Below, in pieces: positions 315-5,794 of a DNA stretch of 35,892 nt (the stretch's first letter is position 1; each line of letters begins with the position of its first letter). Position numbers and translations under genes: made by a program. The notes below the pieces were generated by a model, which made no database searches, was not told the DNA's origin, and saw only the letters and a list, made by a program, of their open reading frames with translations. The stretch lies in assembly GCA_018650465.1 (NCBI GenBank), contig JABIFY010000111.1:1-35892 (forward strand), in the 5' to 3' direction. The DNA comes from Alphaproteobacteria bacterium. Lineage in GTDB: Bacteria; Pseudomonadota; Alphaproteobacteria; UBA2966.

Positions 315-701
315 CTATTTGGAGTTAGCTATGATGTAAGCAATAACGTTTGCACGCTGCTTCTCTTTCCGGAGGCCGGCAAAACCCATTTTGGTTTTCT
401 TGACCATCTTTTTTGGCTTGATCAGGAACTCATCCATGGTTTTCTCGTCCCAGACAATTCCGGAGCCTTTCATGGCTTTTGAGTATTTTTTGTAGCCATC
501 TGCGGTTCCAGCCTTGCGGCCCATGATACCAGCCAGGTTCGGGCCAACCTTGTGTTTGCCACCTGGCTTGAGGGTATGGCAGGCTTTGCATTTGTTAAAA
601 ACTTTTTTTCCTTTACCGGCATCACCGGCGGCCAATGCAGAGGCGCTGGAAAGGGCGATAAGGCAGGCAGTTGTTACGCCCAAAACTTTTTTAAACGACA
701 T
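315..701 (-). CDS. class I c-type cytochrome, periplasmic
   Basis: A 128-residue monohaem cytochrome c of the c2/c550 type, which carries electrons in the periplasm. Residues 1-24 form a signal peptide with a hydrophobic core ending in Ala-Leu-Ala-Ala. The haem-binding motif CKACH is at 38-42. The likely axial Met is M105 in a Thr-Lys-Met-Gly-Phe-Ala segment, as in the family. The mature protein is very rich in Lys, which suits docking to acidic partners. The ATG at 701 has AGGAGA about 8 nt upstream. The gene reads toward the left edge, with a palindrome-rich 300-bp region upstream, and lies next to a cytochrome P460 gene, for which it could serve as electron acceptor (inference). Confidence 0.93.
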
Positions 702-1001: not shown

Positions 1002-2123
1002 TCAATGCCTTACTTCTTCCGGCAGGAAGAACATGTGGTCCTGATCCTCCATCGAGGCGTGGCACTCGATACAAAAAGCAACATTCGCGCTGCCTTTACC
1101 ATTCGTGACGCCTAATGTTGAACCGTTGGGCATAATCATCGAATAGCGCCAGTCACCACTCGGTTTATTAAATCCAGCGGCCATCTTTTGCATGATGAAC
1201 AAGGGACCCGGTGAAACCTTGCCATTGGGATGTGCCATAAAGCTGTCTTTGGCCAAGACAGCCCCCACCGGCATTTTCCCGGATTCTTCATATTTGCCAT
1301 AAGATTTGGCAACCGCATTGGCATAGTTATTGGCATAGCGATCACCATGCGTTGCCGACTGGTAAGGCGCGGTCGCGTAGTTTACCCAGGTTGGATAAGC
1401 CTTGGCGACCTGATCACCGGATTTGGCATAGGCGGCTTGCAGGGGTGCTTTCAGGCAATTATATGCCACGACAGGTTCCTCGCCTTGCAACTCAGCTGCG
1501 GCGGCGGGTGCACATGGATTCGCTGCACATGGATTCGCGGCGCATGGGTTCTTCGCTGCGCAAGGGTTCTTCGCTGCGCAGGGGTTTTTGGCTGCACAAG
1601 GGTTGCAGCCCTTGGGGGCGCAGGGGTTTTTGGCTGCACAAGGGTTGCAGCCCTTGGGGGCGCAGGGGTTTTTGGCTGCACAAGGATTACAGCCCTTGGG
1701 GGCGCAGGGGTTTTTGGCTGCACATGGATTACAGCCCTTGGGTGCACATGGATTTTTGGCTGCGCAAGGATTTGCCATTGCCATTTTCAGTCGCGGCACA
1801 GCACATTTTTCCAGCGATGCAGACTTGGCACCGCAGGGACTGCATAGTGAGCACGCATTTCTGGCAGCACAAGGGTTACACGATTTCGCAGCACAGGGAT
1901 TTTTCGCAGCGCATGGGTTCTTCGCGGCGCAAGGATTTTTCGCTGCACAGGGACTGCAGGCTGATTTCTTGACAGCGCACGGATTTGCCGAACACGCACT
2001 TTTGGGGGCACAGGCCGCCAAAAGCACGGTCGGCAGTGCAACCGTTGCCATGGACGCGACGCCAACCTTGATCATGAACGGCATGACTGACGAGGCGAGC
2101 AATTTACTTTTAAGTGGTTGCAT
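1002..2123 (-). CDS. Cys-rich Asn-Pro-Cys repeat protein fused to a C-terminal cytochrome P460 domain
   Basis: A 373-residue exported protein. The N-terminal hydrophobic segment ends in Leu-Leu-Ala-Ala-Cys (C38), which fits a lipobox, so the protein may be membrane-anchored. Residues 38-205 are low complexity, with about 32 Cys, mostly as NPCAAK units. Four near-identical 14-residue units (NPCAAKNPCAPKGC) occupy 118-173. Residues about 214-373 match cytochrome P460, with haem motif CIECH at 351-355 near the C terminus. P460 cytochromes oxidise hydroxylamine or bind NO through a Lys-cross-linked haem; activity here is unproven. The ATG at 2123 has GAGGAA 7 nt upstream. The N terminus resembles that of the next gene upstream (2236-2523), so the two are paralogous over that part and probably co-transcribed. 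The repeat leaves other frames open, giving false genes on both strands. Confidence 0.88.
   Translation of the reverse strand: MQPLKSKLLASSVMPFMIKVGVASMATVALPTVLLAACAPKSACSANPCAVKKSACSPCAAKNPCAAKNPCAAKNPCAAKSCNPCAARNACSLCSPCGAKSASLEKCAVPRLKMAMANPCAAKNPCAPKGCNPCAAKNPCAPKGCNPCAAKNPCAPKGCNPCAAKNPCAPKGCNPCAAKNPCAAKNPCAAKNPCAANPCAANPCAPAAAAELQGEEPVVAYNCLKAPLQAAYAKSGDQVAKAYPTWVNYATAPYQSATHGDRYANNYANAVAKSYGKYEESGKMPVGAVLAKDSFMAHPNGKVSPGPLFIMQKMAAGFNKPSGDWRYSMIMPNGSTLGVTNGKGSANVAFCIECHASMEDQDHMFFLPEEVRH
1605..1772 (-). repeat. four tandem 42-bp coding repeats in the Cys-rich P460 gene
   Basis: Four 42-bp units encode NPCAAKNPCAPKGC (protein residues 118-173). They differ by only a few substitutions, the last unit on the plus strand (nearest 1772) being the most diverged. 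Copy number probably varies among strains through slippage or recombination (inference). Degenerate 18-bp NPCAAK units flank the array on both sides. Confidence 0.9.
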
Positions 2124-2235
2124 CTATGTATTCCTCAGAGTGTTTCAGTTTCTTGCTGAAACACAGGTTTGCTGGGAGGCATTGGCAAGCAATGCAGATA
2201 TGAAACGAGGCGATTCGGATTAAACCGAATACGCT

Positions 2236-2523
2236 TTAGCTCTTTTTTGCGGCGCAAGGATTTTTCGCTGCGCAAGGGTTTTTGGCGGCACATGGATTGC
2301 AGGCACCACATTGCTTTTTAACAGCGCAGGGGTTTTTTGCCGCGCAAGGGTTTTTGGCTGCACAAGGATTGGCTTTGCAAGGGCTTTTGGCGGAGCATGA
2401 AGCATAGGTTGGTGTTGGGTTCAGAACCGTGCCAACTGTTGCGATGCCCAGGCCCAATACCAACGGACCAAGCATAAGTGGAAGCATTGTAGAGGAGAGG
2501 AGCCTGTTTTTTAACGGTTTCAT
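2236..2523 (-). CDS. small secreted Cys-rich Asn-Pro-Cys repeat protein
   Basis: A 95-residue protein of unknown function. Residues 1-41 form an N-terminal export signal whose first 20 residues resemble those of the P460 fusion protein encoded downstream (M-x-P-L-K-x-x-L-L-x-S-S). The mature part, about 54 residues, is almost entirely NPCAAK-type repeat and has 10 Cys, spaced mainly every six residues. No haem motif CxxCH is present, so the Cys are free for metal binding, disulfides or modification. The ATG at 2523 has AAGGA 9 nt upstream; an in-frame TTG further upstream is less likely. The gene sits about 110 nt before the P460 gene and diverges from the FGE-like gene. It looks like a stand-alone version of the repeat domain of its neighbour. 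Confidence 0.82.
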   Translation of the reverse strand: MKPLKNRLLSSTMLPLMLGPLVLGLGIATVGTVLNPTPTYASCSAKSPCKANPCAAKNPCAAKNPCAVKKQCGACNPCAAKNPCAAKNPCAAKKS

Positions 2524-2759
2524 TGTATTTTGTCCTTCATGGTGCAATTGAGTTCTGAGACCTGGTGTTTTTCTGTCATCGAATTTGGATTGCGACCAGG
2601 TTTCACTAACGGGTGACAGGATTAACCTATGGTCTTTTGCAGGTTGTGCCGAATAACATCACCTCAAGTGTTTGTGAGCGTTCGTCATCTCAGGTGATGT
2701 GACAGGTGAAATATTCGTCACCAATTTGAGAGTAGTTATTGTTCAGACAGGAACCGGGT
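2524..2759. promoter_or_regulatory. divergent promoter region with a long-spaced dyad
   Basis: This region separates the small Cys-rich gene (minus) from the FGE-like gene (plus). It contains a perfect 9-bp inverted repeat, ACATCACCT (2656-2664) and AGGTGATGT (2692-2700), with a 27-bp spacer, and a direct repeat CAGGTGA at 2691-2697 and 2703-2709. A shared regulator controlling both directions is plausible. On the minus strand, TGAAAC followed about 17 nt later by CGATG weakly resembles an ECF-sigma promoter; this is only a suggestion. Confidence 0.4.
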
Positions 2760-3671
2760 ATGCAAAAATTGAAAACAGGATCGTTGTCTGGACCGAGGCT
2801 GTTCACGACCATGATCGTGATGGTTTTGATCCAGGCTTCTCTGACGTTCCAGGCTTCTCTGACAATGGCAAATGCCCTGGAAGTTGCTGATGTCCCCGGC
2901 ATCGTCACAGTCAGGGCCGGATCTTTCATTGTCGGCTCAGATAAGGCGGAACGTGAGGCGGGCTATCGGCTTGATGAACAGGCCTATGGCCACAGTGTGA
3001 CCCGCAAGCAGGGGTGGTATGACCGTGAACGAAACCGGCAACGTGTTCAGCTCGGGGCCTTTTCTATTACAAAAACCCCTGTCACAAATGCGCAATATGC
3101 TTCTTTTATTCGGGACTCAGGCCATCCGGCACCAGATGTCGATCGCTTGACGTGGGACGCCTGGGGATTGATTCACAAATATTCCGAAACCCGACGATTT
3201 GCCTGGGTTGGCGGTAAGCCACCGGTTGGACGTGAAGATCACCCGGTTGTGTTGATCTCATATGCCGATGCAAAGGCTTACGCCTTGTGGCTGGGGCGGC
3301 AAACCAAAAGCAGCTGGCGATTACCAACCGAATCTGAGTGGGAAAAGGCAGCCAGGGGTCCGGATGGAGCCCGTTTTCCCTGGGGCGACGTCTATGATGC
3401 CACATTGTTGAACTCGGCGGATCAAGGACCATTTGATACCATGTCCGTCGGTAGTTTCCCGGCCGGTGCCAGTGTGGAAGGATTGTTGGATGTGGCCGGT
3501 CAGGTGTTTGAATGGACGGCGACGCGCTCAGGCAAAGGGCATTATATCGTCAAGGGTGGTTCGTGGGATGACAAGGGCTGTGGTGTCTGCCGGCCTGCGG
3601 CCCGACACGCACGACCTGTCGGTCTGAAGCATATTCTGATTGGATTTCGCCTTGTAAATGATGCCCACTGA
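2760..3671 (+). CDS. exported formylglycine-generating-enzyme-like (SUMF1/FGE-sulfatase family) protein
   Basis: A 303-residue protein with an N-terminal hydrophobic export signal (about residues 14-40) followed by an FGE-sulfatase (SUMF1) domain. Family hallmarks are visible: an early Val-Arg-Ala-Gly-Ser-Phe strand, a central Trp-Arg-Leu-Pro-Thr-Glu-Ser-Glu-Trp-Glu-Lys-Ala-Ala-Arg motif, Phe-Pro-Trp-Gly, a Val-Phe-Glu-Trp-Thr segment, and GGSWDDKGCGVCRPAAR near the end. True FGEs use a Cu-binding Cys pair four residues apart. Here the pair is CxxC, so formylglycine synthesis is doubtful. Related families include NirV, PvdO and EgtB. The ATG at 2760 has AGGAA 6 nt upstream; an alternative start 21 nt earlier lacks a site. 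No sulfatase is nearby; the neighbours are Cys-rich exported proteins that could be substrates (inference). Confidence 0.85.
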   Translation: MQKLKTGSLSGPRLFTTMIVMVLIQASLTFQASLTMANALEVADVPGIVTVRAGSFIVGSDKAEREAGYRLDEQAYGHSVTRKQGWYDRERNRQRVQLGAFSITKTPVTNAQYASFIRDSGHPAPDVDRLTWDAWGLIHKYSETRRFAWVGGKPPVGREDHPVVLISYADAKAYALWLGRQTKSSWRLPTESEWEKAARGPDGARFPWGDVYDATLLNSADQGPFDTMSVGSFPAGASVEGLLDVAGQVFEWTATRSGKGHYIVKGGSWDDKGCGVCRPAARHARPVGLKHILIGFRLVNDAH

Positions 3672-3725
3672 AATCACTTTAGTCATACACTCCGCAACTT
3701 TATTAACTTGCCCAGATTTGAAAAC

Positions 3726-4427
3726 ATGACATTGGACCTATCAGAACTCTCTGTTGAACGCCGTCAGAAAATGCTTGCCGCAGGCGAGGATGTTCTTGAA
3801 TGTTATCGCGTGATGAAAAAGGGCGGTTTGAACATTGTTGGGGAAATCCTGAAAGACCAGGGCACATTTTACGAATGGAACCATTATCCGGATGCGGATG
3901 TCTATGACCCGGATACCCATGGCCAATATTATTATCACAACCATCGGGAAGGGGAGCACGGTCACTTCCATTTGTTCCTTAGAAAAAAAGGTATGATCAA
4001 GGGTACTAAACCTGTGCCCTACAAGGGTAAGGAAAAATGGCCACGCGGCAATGACGCCTTGAGCCACCTGGTGGCGATTTCCATGGATGACTTTGGCTTT
4101 CCCATAGGATTGTTTACCACCAACCGTTGGGTAACAGCCGAATGCTGGTACAAGGCCGATGATGTAATTTCCATGCTGGATCACTTTGAAATCGACCATG
4201 CTTTTCCGTCCTGGCCGGTAAATCGATGGCTGACCGGCATGGTTGCCTTGTTCCAGCCGCAAATAACCGACCTGATTCGCAAGCGAGATCAGGTTGTTGC
4301 CCAGTGGCAGTTAACCCATGCAGGCCAGGATGTATTTGAGGATCGCGATCTGGAACTGACATCCGAAATGAATGTTTCGGTTGATGATCAGATGTCGCTC
4401 TTGCGGTCTTCGCTCGCGAGTTCCTGA
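3726..4427 (+). CDS. conserved His-rich protein of unknown function (possibly DUF6969)
   Basis: A 233-residue soluble protein with no signal peptide or membrane segment. The centre carries a striking His/aromatic stretch, from Tyr-Tyr-Tyr-His-Asn-His to Gly-Glu-His-Gly-His-Phe-His-Leu-Phe-Leu, suggesting a metal site. It resembles a family that I believe is catalogued as DUF6969; this is from memory and not certain. It lies 54 nt after the FGE-like gene on the same strand, so it is probably in the same transcript. The ATG at 3726 is preferred over an in-frame TTG at 3708; neither has a strong ribosome binding site. The 3' end overlaps the convergent antiporter gene by 40 bp. Confidence 0.7.
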   Translation: MTLDLSELSVERRQKMLAAGEDVLECYRVMKKGGLNIVGEILKDQGTFYEWNHYPDADVYDPDTHGQYYYHNHREGEHGHFHLFLRKKGMIKGTKPVPYKGKEKWPRGNDALSHLVAISMDDFGFPIGLFTTNRWVTAECWYKADDVISMLDHFEIDHAFPSWPVNRWLTGMVALFQPQITDLIRKRDQVVAQWQLTHAGQDVFEDRDLELTSEMNVSVDDQMSLLRSSLASS

Positions 4428-5794
4428 TCATCTGTCTGGTCCTCAGGATCGGCAGTTGTGATGGTTCGGGCGCGCCAGCCACCTTTTTGTGGCTGGATGG
4501 TCAATCTGGGTTTGCCAAACAATCGATAAGTTAATTCCGGCGGAAGTTGTCGTCCGTAAACTGCCCGCCACAAGGCCTGCCAGCCTCCACTTTTGAGCAT
4601 CTGGTAAACGCTTTTGACGTCCCCGGTGCGGGTTAGCGCAATGCGCAACAATCGACGTGCGACCACCAGCCATAGCGGGCTTATGATCAGGCTGAAGGCT
4701 GTCACTGTGATAACCAACTGAAAGTCTTCCGGTCCGATCATCCCCATTTGCAAACCCAGTGCACCAAGGACAAAAGAAAACTCCCCCACTTGCGCCAGCA
4801 TCAAACCGGAAATCAAGGCATGGGGCCAGGGCTCGCGCAAGATCAGCAGAATGCCAATGTTTATCGCTGACTTTCCAACCGTGACAATCAACAGGATCAA
4901 CACGACTTCCAGCAAATGTTCACGCACATAGGACAGGTCGATCAGCAGACCGATGGAAACAAAAAAGACCATAACCAGAATATTCTGCAAGGGCTGGACG
5001 CCTCGTCGGATGACGCCCCGCATGCGACTGTTGCCCACCAGTAAACCGGCCAGAAAAGCGCCATAGACAGTCGAAAGCCCCAGCAATCCTGTTATGGTCG
5101 CTGCGCCAAAACAAACGGCGGTACCATATAGCGGCCTGAGTTCCGGTGAGCGGGCAACTGAGCGTGCGAACGGCAGGTTGATCTTTGACCGGCGGCTGAG
5201 GATTGCAACCAGGCCCGCCAGGACCAGGGCCGAGATGACCACCTTGCCGATGCCCGCCCAGGTGCTGACATCGCCATCGCCCGCGATGTGACCAAGGATC
5301 AGCATCATGGGAATGATGGCCAGGTCCTGGGCGATCAGTACGGCAACTGTCAACTGACCCAACTGCGTGCGCAGCAGGTTCATATCTTCCAGCATCTTGA
5401 TGGCCACAGCCGTACTACTGAGGGCGATAACAAAGCCCAGCAATACTGCGGCCCCCGTCGACCAGCCAAACAAATATGAAAGAACCCACATCACAAAAAC
5501 CGCAATGGCGGCCTGCAGGATCGCTGTCGTGACAGCTATTTTCCAGATGGCTCGAAAACTACGCAGGCTGAGTTCCATGCCCACAAAAAACAGCAGGAGC
5601 AAAACGCCAAGGTCGGCCAGGAAAGAAACATATTCCCGGGTTTCAACCAGGGCAAACCCACTGGGTCCGAGGATGAGGCCGGTCAGCAAATAGCCGACAA
5701 GGGCAGGCTGTCGCAGGCGCGCAAGTATGGCACCCGTTATAAGAGCGACCAGGATGACAACAGCTAATGGCAGCATCTGGTCGTTAACGTGCAT
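4388..5794 (-). CDS. CPA2-family monovalent cation:proton antiporter (KefB/Na+-H+ exchanger domain)
   Basis: A 468-residue inner-membrane protein with about 12 hydrophobic segments over residues 1-385, matching the Na+/H+ exchanger fold (PF00999). The N-terminal part has the KefB-like run Gln-Pro-Ala-Leu-Val-Gly-Tyr-Leu and Gly-Pro-Ser-Gly. The ion-site region contains Ala-Leu-Ser-Ser-Thr-Ala-Val-Ala and Leu-Ile-Ala-Gln-Asp-Leu-Ala. The C-terminal tail of about 80 residues is short and basic and lacks the TrkA-N (RCK) domain of KefB/KefC, so it would not respond to NAD(H) or glutathione in the KefC manner. The ATG at 5794 follows a G-rich Shine-Dalgarno. Its last 40 bp overlap the convergent His-rich gene. 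The ion (K+ or Na+) cannot be told. Confidence 0.9.
   Translation of the reverse strand: MHVNDQMLPLAVVILVALITGAILARLRQPALVGYLLTGLILGPSGFALVETREYVSFLADLGVLLLLFFVGMELSLRSFRAIWKIAVTTAILQAAIAVFVMWVLSYLFGWSTGAAVLLGFVIALSSTAVAIKMLEDMNLLRTQLGQLTVAVLIAQDLAIIPMMLILGHIAGDGDVSTWAGIGKVVISALVLAGLVAILSRRSKINLPFARSVARSPELRPLYGTAVCFGAATITGLLGLSTVYGAFLAGLLVGNSRMRGVIRRGVQPLQNILVMVFFVSIGLLIDLSYVREHLLEVVLILLIVTVGKSAINIGILLILREPWPHALISGLMLAQVGEFSFVLGALGLQMGMIGPEDFQLVITVTAFSLIISPLWLVVARRLLRIALTRTGDVKSVYQMLKSGGWQALWRAVYGRQLPPELTYRLFGKPRLTIQPQKGGWRARTITTADPEDQTDDQELASEDRKSDI

Follow-up and report, generated by a model that had tools for sequence, protein, structure and literature searches.

DUF6969 proteins are linked to exported cysteine-repeat proteins in a possible bufferin-like maturation system of proteobacteria

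The closest described counterparts of the locus studied here are the MNIO (DUF692)/bufferin and HvfA-oxazolin systems, which produce ribosomally synthesized and post-translationally modified peptides (RiPPs). In the accessible part of PMC12452194, MNIO precursors carry Sec signal peptides, Buf1 clusters contain sigma/NrsF genes, and a fusion of Buf1, cytochrome c and a formylglycine-generating enzyme (FGE) domain is reported. We analysed a stretch of 35,892 nucleotides from an alphaproteobacterium of the UBA2966 lineage (assembly GCA_018650465.1, contig JABIFY010000111.1; hereafter the window), whose left part encodes two exported Cys-repeat proteins, an FGE-like protein and a DUF6969 protein. 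As far as that part of the source goes, the resemblance lies in exported Cys-motif proteins ranging from short to long, in a putative cytosolic metalloenzyme, in sigma-70/NrsF neighbours at a few DUF6969 loci, and in the linkage of haem c and FGE domains, for which the reported fusion is an independent parallel. There are also clear differences. A search for the MNIO family PF05114, positive in 2 of 14 control genomes, gave no match in the genome to which the window belongs, which rules out membership of the MNIO/bufferin systems; no solved fold is detectably related to DUF6969; and the accessible part of PMC12452194 names no precursor family with NPC repeats. Because the genome lacks MNIO and DUF6969 is not detectably related to any solved structure, we liken the system to MNIO/bufferin systems and keep it apart from them: by analogy it would work as they do without belonging to them, a comparison to which we give slightly less than even odds.

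DUF6969 stands at the centre of the locus and is the usual partner of the Cys-repeat proteins. The product of 3726-4427 matches PF22308 with 290.8 bits (6.3e-87) against a gathering cut-off of 27. The original prediction, made from the DNA sequence alone, had described it as a His-rich protein; the gene is real and 11 of its 233 residues are His, but its identity had been missed. Translation probably starts at the ATG at 3726 rather than at 3708. We aligned the window protein with 65 of the 81 available DUF6969 sequences from named species. Eleven positions, H53, D58, D61, H71, H73, E77, H80, H82, H114, W135 and R187, are invariant in these 66 sequences, and five of the histidines (H71, H73, H80, H82 and H114) are likewise never replaced in a set of 35 sequences of greater diversity; E77 and H78 are invariant or nearly so. 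The AlphaFold model (pLDDT 96.7, pTM 0.93) contains strands 66-71, 79-86 and 112-120, which carry or adjoin H71/H73, H80/H82 and H114, respectively. Judged from these predicted strand positions, and not from the model coordinates, the set HxH...HxH...H is a probable metal site. No known fold could be assigned to DUF6969: Foldseek retrieved no solved structure at E<=0.001 (best E 0.45), and neither VIA-align against 590 chains (best Z 4.0) nor a profile search of PDB sequences (best E 0.35) gave anything convincing, which is not proof of a new fold. No signal peptide was apparent by eye, so DUF6969 should be cytosolic.

The two NPC-repeat genes lie on the opposite strand and diverge from the FGE-like and DUF6969 genes, the layout that had been predicted, with all genes present (Table 1). 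The longer protein contains 35 Cys and 19 NPC triplets, the shorter one 10 Cys and 6 NPC; earlier counts of about 32 and 10 Cys were right for the short protein but too low for the long one. The short protein matches the long one with 60% identity from residue 1 onwards (9.6e-16), and both begin with M.PLK..LL.S...P.M, in agreement with the predicted pair of adjacent exported proteins with a common N terminus and NPC repeats. Signal peptides were assigned by inspection or with a crude rule instead of SignalP; both proteins pass this rule-based filter as Cys-rich precursors with a Sec-type signal peptide. A segment of the form C.VPRL separates two Cys-repeat blocks in several P460-type proteins and in one haem-free repeat protein (window, L188, L132, L043, L179 and L193; L and G denote our loci and genomes), and may be a processing or binding site. 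Six haem-free repeat proteins were scanned against Pfam and NCBIfam, and none reached a model's cut-off.

We then determined how often these genes occur together. Of the 289 genomes in the class, 61 have DUF6969. Searches for Cys-repeat arrays were positive in 35, of which 29 have DUF6969 (one-sided Fisher p 2.7e-17); FGE relatives (E <= 1e-60) occur in 19, of which 17 have DUF6969 (p 5.5e-11), and the P460 haem domain in 37, 25 of them with DUF6969 (p 4e-11). Arrays were defined as a match to either of two protein queries; the array of G210, for instance, was missed by the first query and found by the second, and other repeat registers are missed, so these genome counts are lower bounds. The conserved set proposed in the original prediction is thus recovered in other genomes, and our literature search found no description of the gene set. 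The same search, mostly of papers outside subscription, turned up no mention of DUF6969 or PF22308, nor anything relevant for the repeat letters, for P460 with DUF2336 or for Cys repeats with FGE.

Gene neighbourhoods were read at 141 loci with 134 distinct DUF6969 sequences: the window, 60 further ones in the class, drawn from 56 of the 60 remaining DUF6969 genomes, and the best 80 of at least 562 relatives in named species. The matches in G034, G071, G121 and G131 and two fragments were left out. Among the 80 named loci, 51 have an NPC array (>=3 NPC) no more than 4 kb from DUF6969, as do 26 of the 61 others including the window, which together corresponds to 71 of the 134 distinct sequences; the proportion is 28/35 among loci with beta- or gammaproteobacterial titles. 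Using a crude filter that lets some antisense frames through, we measured the density of exported Cys-rich open reading frames (ORFs) around DUF6969. It amounts to 0.136, 0.106 and 0.108 per kb at 0-1, 1-2 and 2-3 kb, and is about eightfold lower, 0.005-0.025 per kb, at 3-8 kb. Co-occurrence and distance statistics together rule out a chance neighbourhood. A quick tree was built from 131 DUF6969 sequences after three short rows had been dropped. In it, 81 genes have a Cys-rich neighbour; these are spread across the whole tree, deep rows included, with 26 label changes against 40 in shuffles. For the labels, a filter match was set aside in four loci with chance-looking ORFs, L174 keeping its label through its NPC gene; another 18 loci received the Cys-rich label by hand, 7 of them outside any rule; among these, the arrays of L052 and L138 lie 5-6 kb away. 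Carriers of linked Cys-rich genes are alpha-, beta- and gammaproteobacteria.

What is conserved as a partner is a Cys-rich exported protein and not one sequence. The repeat types near DUF6969 include NPCAAK, CGAK (CGACGAK), KCGAKC/KCAPKC, CGGSHAGD (L087) and CCAAEG (L090). In a Skermanella locus, NPC repeats stand beside DUF302 and a sigma-70/NrsF pair, and plasmid bglu_2p of Burkholderia glumae BGR1 (L201:1-12645) carries DUF6969 with an 89-residue exported protein built of KCxxKC repeats (KCGAKC/KCAPKC).

We propose that the locus is a dedicated, bufferin-like maturation system for exported Cys-repeat proteins, and we put the probability of this reading at roughly 0.48. From the observed linkage, gene anatomy and conservation we infer activity, modification and ligand as follows. 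The step of which we are most certain is that cytosolic, metal-dependent DUF6969 would act on the Cys-repeat proteins before their Sec export, either modifying them or loading them with metal. The exported thiols would then retain or buffer something thiophilic, with Cu(I) or some other soft metal the likeliest candidate; alternatively they would carry sulphur or redox equivalents. The fused haem could exchange electrons with whatever the thiols hold. Least certain is the last step, in which the CGxC FGE-like protein of many alphaproteobacteria may provide a second, periplasmic and perhaps copper-dependent reaction, and CcdA and thioredoxin may keep the thiols reduced in several beta- and gammaproteobacterial loci. 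A more far-reaching version, which we hold only tentatively, is that DUF6969 represents a new class and fold of metalloenzyme installing a novel modification or metal cluster on the repeat cysteines, and that the haem-fused arrays are a new periplasmic redox protein loaded with metal or sulphur, invented independently of MNIO and bufferins.

Several observations weigh against a maturation system of this kind. Leader-like conservation of the signal peptide is weak, the motif being found in 25 of 78 proteins (0/31 FGE and 0/2 cytochromes c) and chosen post hoc, and we discarded the signal peptide as a conserved leader. The two array searches alone gave no match in 32 of the 61 DUF6969 genomes; with loci read singly, some Cys-repeat or Cys-rich exported protein was found in 39, and no array was found anywhere in the other 22, the loci of four of which are outside the neighbourhood set. 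No Cys-rich neighbour was seen in 50 of 131 DUF6969 loci, some of them cut by contig ends. The clearest case is that of Azospirillum plasmids (L197, L198), where DUF6969 has no visible Cys-rich gene, and no such partner was seen in the one Sinorhizobium meliloti locus read. Because of these loci and of the genomes without arrays, the role of DUF6969 may be wider than Cys-repeat proteins. Conversely, 6 of the 35 array genomes lack DUF6969. Four of these (G074, G084, G144 and G222) match only weakly (35-57% identity), and no ORF with three NPC is present in what was read of G074 and G084; G007 has CGACGAK repeats, and G124 has NPC proteins, a cytochrome and an FGE at which its contig ends. Twelve P460 genomes also lack DUF6969; the six that were read are G007, G124 and four with NPC-free P460 proteins (L178, L180-L182).

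The C-terminal domain of the longer protein is a Cytochrome_P460 domain, as predicted (PF16694 4.5e-9, above cut-off). The only solved family members that it matches by sequence are 7s5o (4.3e-5) and, weakly, 7ead (0.42), and its columns were read by alignment to both. It shares with cytochromes P460 and c'-beta the PF16694 match, CxxCH and, as far as the alignment shows, mostly a Lys at the putative cross-link column, and differs from them in its N-terminal Cys-repeat array and in having no clear distal carboxylate. C134, C137 and H138 are invariant in the 25 of 33 domains that were aligned. The Lys is found in 30 of the 33 unique domains and replaced by Arg, Leu or Ile in the remaining three, which belong to the eight domains omitted from the alignment; its column corresponds to a Met of 7s5o, which is Met79 if the offset is 20 residues. 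The distal-carboxylate position is Gly when aligned to 7s5o, and the region KMAAGFNK is free of acidic residues, but the alignment has an insertion there. In the accessible part of PMC11928373, this carboxylate is catalytic in active (NH2OH-oxidising) P460s. Since it is not evident in our alignments, simple hydroxylamine oxidation appears disfavoured. The haem partner also varies by lineage: alphaproteobacterial arrays often carry P460, and in a betaproteobacterial NPC family of 11 loci a CxxCH cytochrome domain is enclosed by repeats on both sides. The sole enclosed domain scanned (L113) is SoxA/TsdA-like, with PF21342 at 4.9e-9 and SoxA at 9.9e-8, the latter below cut-off; it resembles SoxA/TsdA-type cytochromes c in this domain and differs from them in its flanking repeats and in adjoining DUF6969. 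Several loci of this type add a short NPC-only protein without haem. A defence against NO or hydroxylamine, with an active P460 haem and Cys repeats as S-nitrosylation sinks, would agree with the P460 domain adjoining DUF6969 in 28 of 131 loci, 27 of them with a Cys-rich neighbour, and with the frequent cross-link Lys. We nevertheless find it highly improbable: this part of the predicted metal- or NO-handling module is weakened because other loci have a different haem domain or none and the carboxylate, catalytic according to the accessible part of PMC11928373, aligns with Gly in our reading, while metal handling is still plausible. Sulphur handling, in which the thiols would carry sulfane sulphur that the haem domain oxidises or reduces, is a shade less improbable. 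The SoxA/TsdA-type domain enclosed in the betaproteobacterial protein points to it, as do YeeE/YedE-type sulphur transporter relatives in 16/134 loci (L107, L134 and L156 among them; no background control) and locus titles such as Sulfuritalea, Sideroxydans and Gallionella; yet alphaproteobacterial loci have a P460 haem instead, and several loci have a short haem-free NPC protein.

The FGE-like protein had been predicted to be exported and to act on the Cys repeats. It carries the FGE-sulfatase domain PF03781 (1.9e-43), with no second domain by Pfam, and its model (pLDDT 83.5) has the FGE fold, as in 7spq, 6vqp, PvdO 5hha and FGE 2q17 (Foldseek also retrieved 6s07 and 5nyy); its export is only probable. 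It thus resembles FGE, PvdO and EgtB-type FGE-sulfatase proteins in fold and domain, and differs from them by a CGxC motif instead of the FGE Cys pair. GCGxC is kept in 38/38 unique close relatives (E <= 1e-60; weaker FGE matches beyond 2 kb in L130, L148 and L149 fall outside this check), with its cysteines three apart, a spacing that does not agree with Cys336/Cys341 of human FGE (residues from PDB titles), which we take to be the copper-binding pair. Conversion of the repeat cysteines by this enzyme, for example to formylglycine, could draw on its fold and invariant CGxC and on the position of its gene, which in 34 of 37 cases immediately precedes DUF6969 in the same orientation. These 37 are the loci with an FGE-like gene within 2 kb, among 134 unique loci; in 23 of them, as in the window, the genes that diverge from FGE encode NPC, P460 or cytochrome c proteins. 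None lies within 2 kb in the other 97 loci, some cut by contig ends, nor in 34 of the 35 beta- and gammaproteobacterial ones, despite NPC arrays in 28 of these. The sulfatase motif C-x-P-x-R is absent from both window NPC proteins. We therefore consider the Cys repeats as FGE substrates the least probable of the readings weighed here. Because it is near DUF6969 in only 37/134 loci, the FGE-like protein is an accessory and not the core of the set; the co-occurrence expected of the NPC genes with both FGE-like and His-rich genes holds mainly for the latter, DUF6969 being the commoner partner. More weight attaches to a reading without maturation, which we still judge unlikely: the Cys-repeat proteins would be unmodified, metallothionein-like periplasmic buffers of Cu, As or another soft metal, and DUF6969 a sensor, chaperone or regulator of their production. 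The repeat sequence varies freely and the Cys periodicity stays, as in a ligand array; sigma-70 with NrsF or zf-HC2 is found in two plasmid loci; and arsenosugar-type genes lie near some loci, with TIGR04283 relatives in 6/134 (one scanned, above cut-off) and ArsS in the B. glumae locus and L162. However, the DUF6969 residue set is invariant and looks catalytic, and plain buffers would not need a dedicated partner kept across classes.

The divergent promoter region contains the perfect 9-bp dyad that had been reported, at 2656-2664/2692-2700. Among 2000 Markov-resampled sequences, 4.5% contain such a dyad (gap up to 60); as a chance event it is thus no more than mildly improbable. A 58-bp block around it, 2647-2704, is identical in the same-genus genome G194, the remaining intergenic region having diverged; this identity would be a stronger sign of a regulatory site than the dyad alone. 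Only a 15-base piece of the block recurs elsewhere in its own genome. Outside the genus, the loci examined gave no convincing match (best 29/50 bases, range 22-29); one 28-base match (L141, genome of L059) lies just upstream of an FGE gene.

The six leftmost genes of the window were read and classified (Table 1). Beyond DUF6969, and overlapping its 3' end, a convergent KefB/MagA-like cation:proton antiporter gene occupies 4388-5794. Relatives of the small c-type cytochrome lie within 4.5 kb of DUF6969 in 28/131 loci, and another contig of the same genome (L004:10022-10714) encodes a P460 paralogue with two NPC triplets. In L052 (2569-3156) and L056 (791-1363), the NPC array sits inside the P460 domain, at a place occupied by a short loop in other members. 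In the betaproteobacterial locus L109, DUF6969 is followed by two FGE-like ORFs in tandem at distances of about 1.6 and 2.8 kb, and G040 has an FGE relative with CGxC and no DUF6969. CcdA relatives are found in 13/134 loci and thioredoxin in 11/134, mostly in beta- and gammaproteobacteria and up to about 8 kb away (no background control); such neighbours would make sense if the periplasmic thiols have to be kept reduced. The annotations of the B. glumae cluster comprise ArsS, TIGR04282/TIGR04283 glycosyltransferases, thioredoxin, CcdA and sigma-70/zf-HC2; genes for TIGR04283 and ArsS recur close to two further loci, L113 (Nitrosomonas) and L162 (Nitrincola), respectively. DUF2336 relatives are present in 24/134 DUF6969 loci, and in both Azospirillum loci an Mla lipid-transport operon is followed by DUF6969 and then DUF2336.

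Table 1. Positions of genes, domains and motifs at the DUF6969 locus of the window.
Feature	Position	Strand	Basis
Small exported c-type cytochrome, c550-like	315-701	-	PF00034 1.1e-11
NPC-repeat protein with C-terminal P460-type haem domain, exported, 373 aa	1002-2123	-	Pfam and residue counts
Cytochrome_P460 domain of the 373-aa protein	1029-1397	-	PF16694 and alignments
CIECH haem motif in the P460 domain	1059-1073	-	Alignments
Lys at the cross-link column of the P460 domain	1248-1250	-	Alignments
Repeat region of the 373-aa protein, first to last NPC	1512-1985	-	
CAVPRL interruption of the NPC repeat region	1788-1805	-	C.VPRL form found again in several relatives
Short NPC-repeat protein, exported, 95 aa, 10 Cys	2236-2523	-	
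58-bp block holding the 9-bp dyad, divergent promoter region	2647-2704		Identical in one same-genus genome
FGE-like protein, CGxC subfamily, probably exported	2760-3671	+	PF03781 1.9e-43; FGE fold
CGVC motif of the FGE-like protein	3579-3590	+	
DUF6969 protein, 233 aa	3726-4427	+	PF22308 6.3e-87
His motif HNH....EHGHFH of DUF6969	3936-3971	+	Conservation in alignments
H114 codon of DUF6969	4065-4067	+	Invariant

The gene set is found in many environmental bacteria. DUF6969 has at least 562 relatives in species genomes, the best 80 of which include Nitrosomonas, Gallionella, Accumulibacter, Methylomicrobium and Thalassospira. If DUF6969 does mature Cys-repeat proteins, bufferin-like proteins would have a second enzymatic route, structurally unrelated to the first, and many hypothetical Cys-rich genes would be explained.

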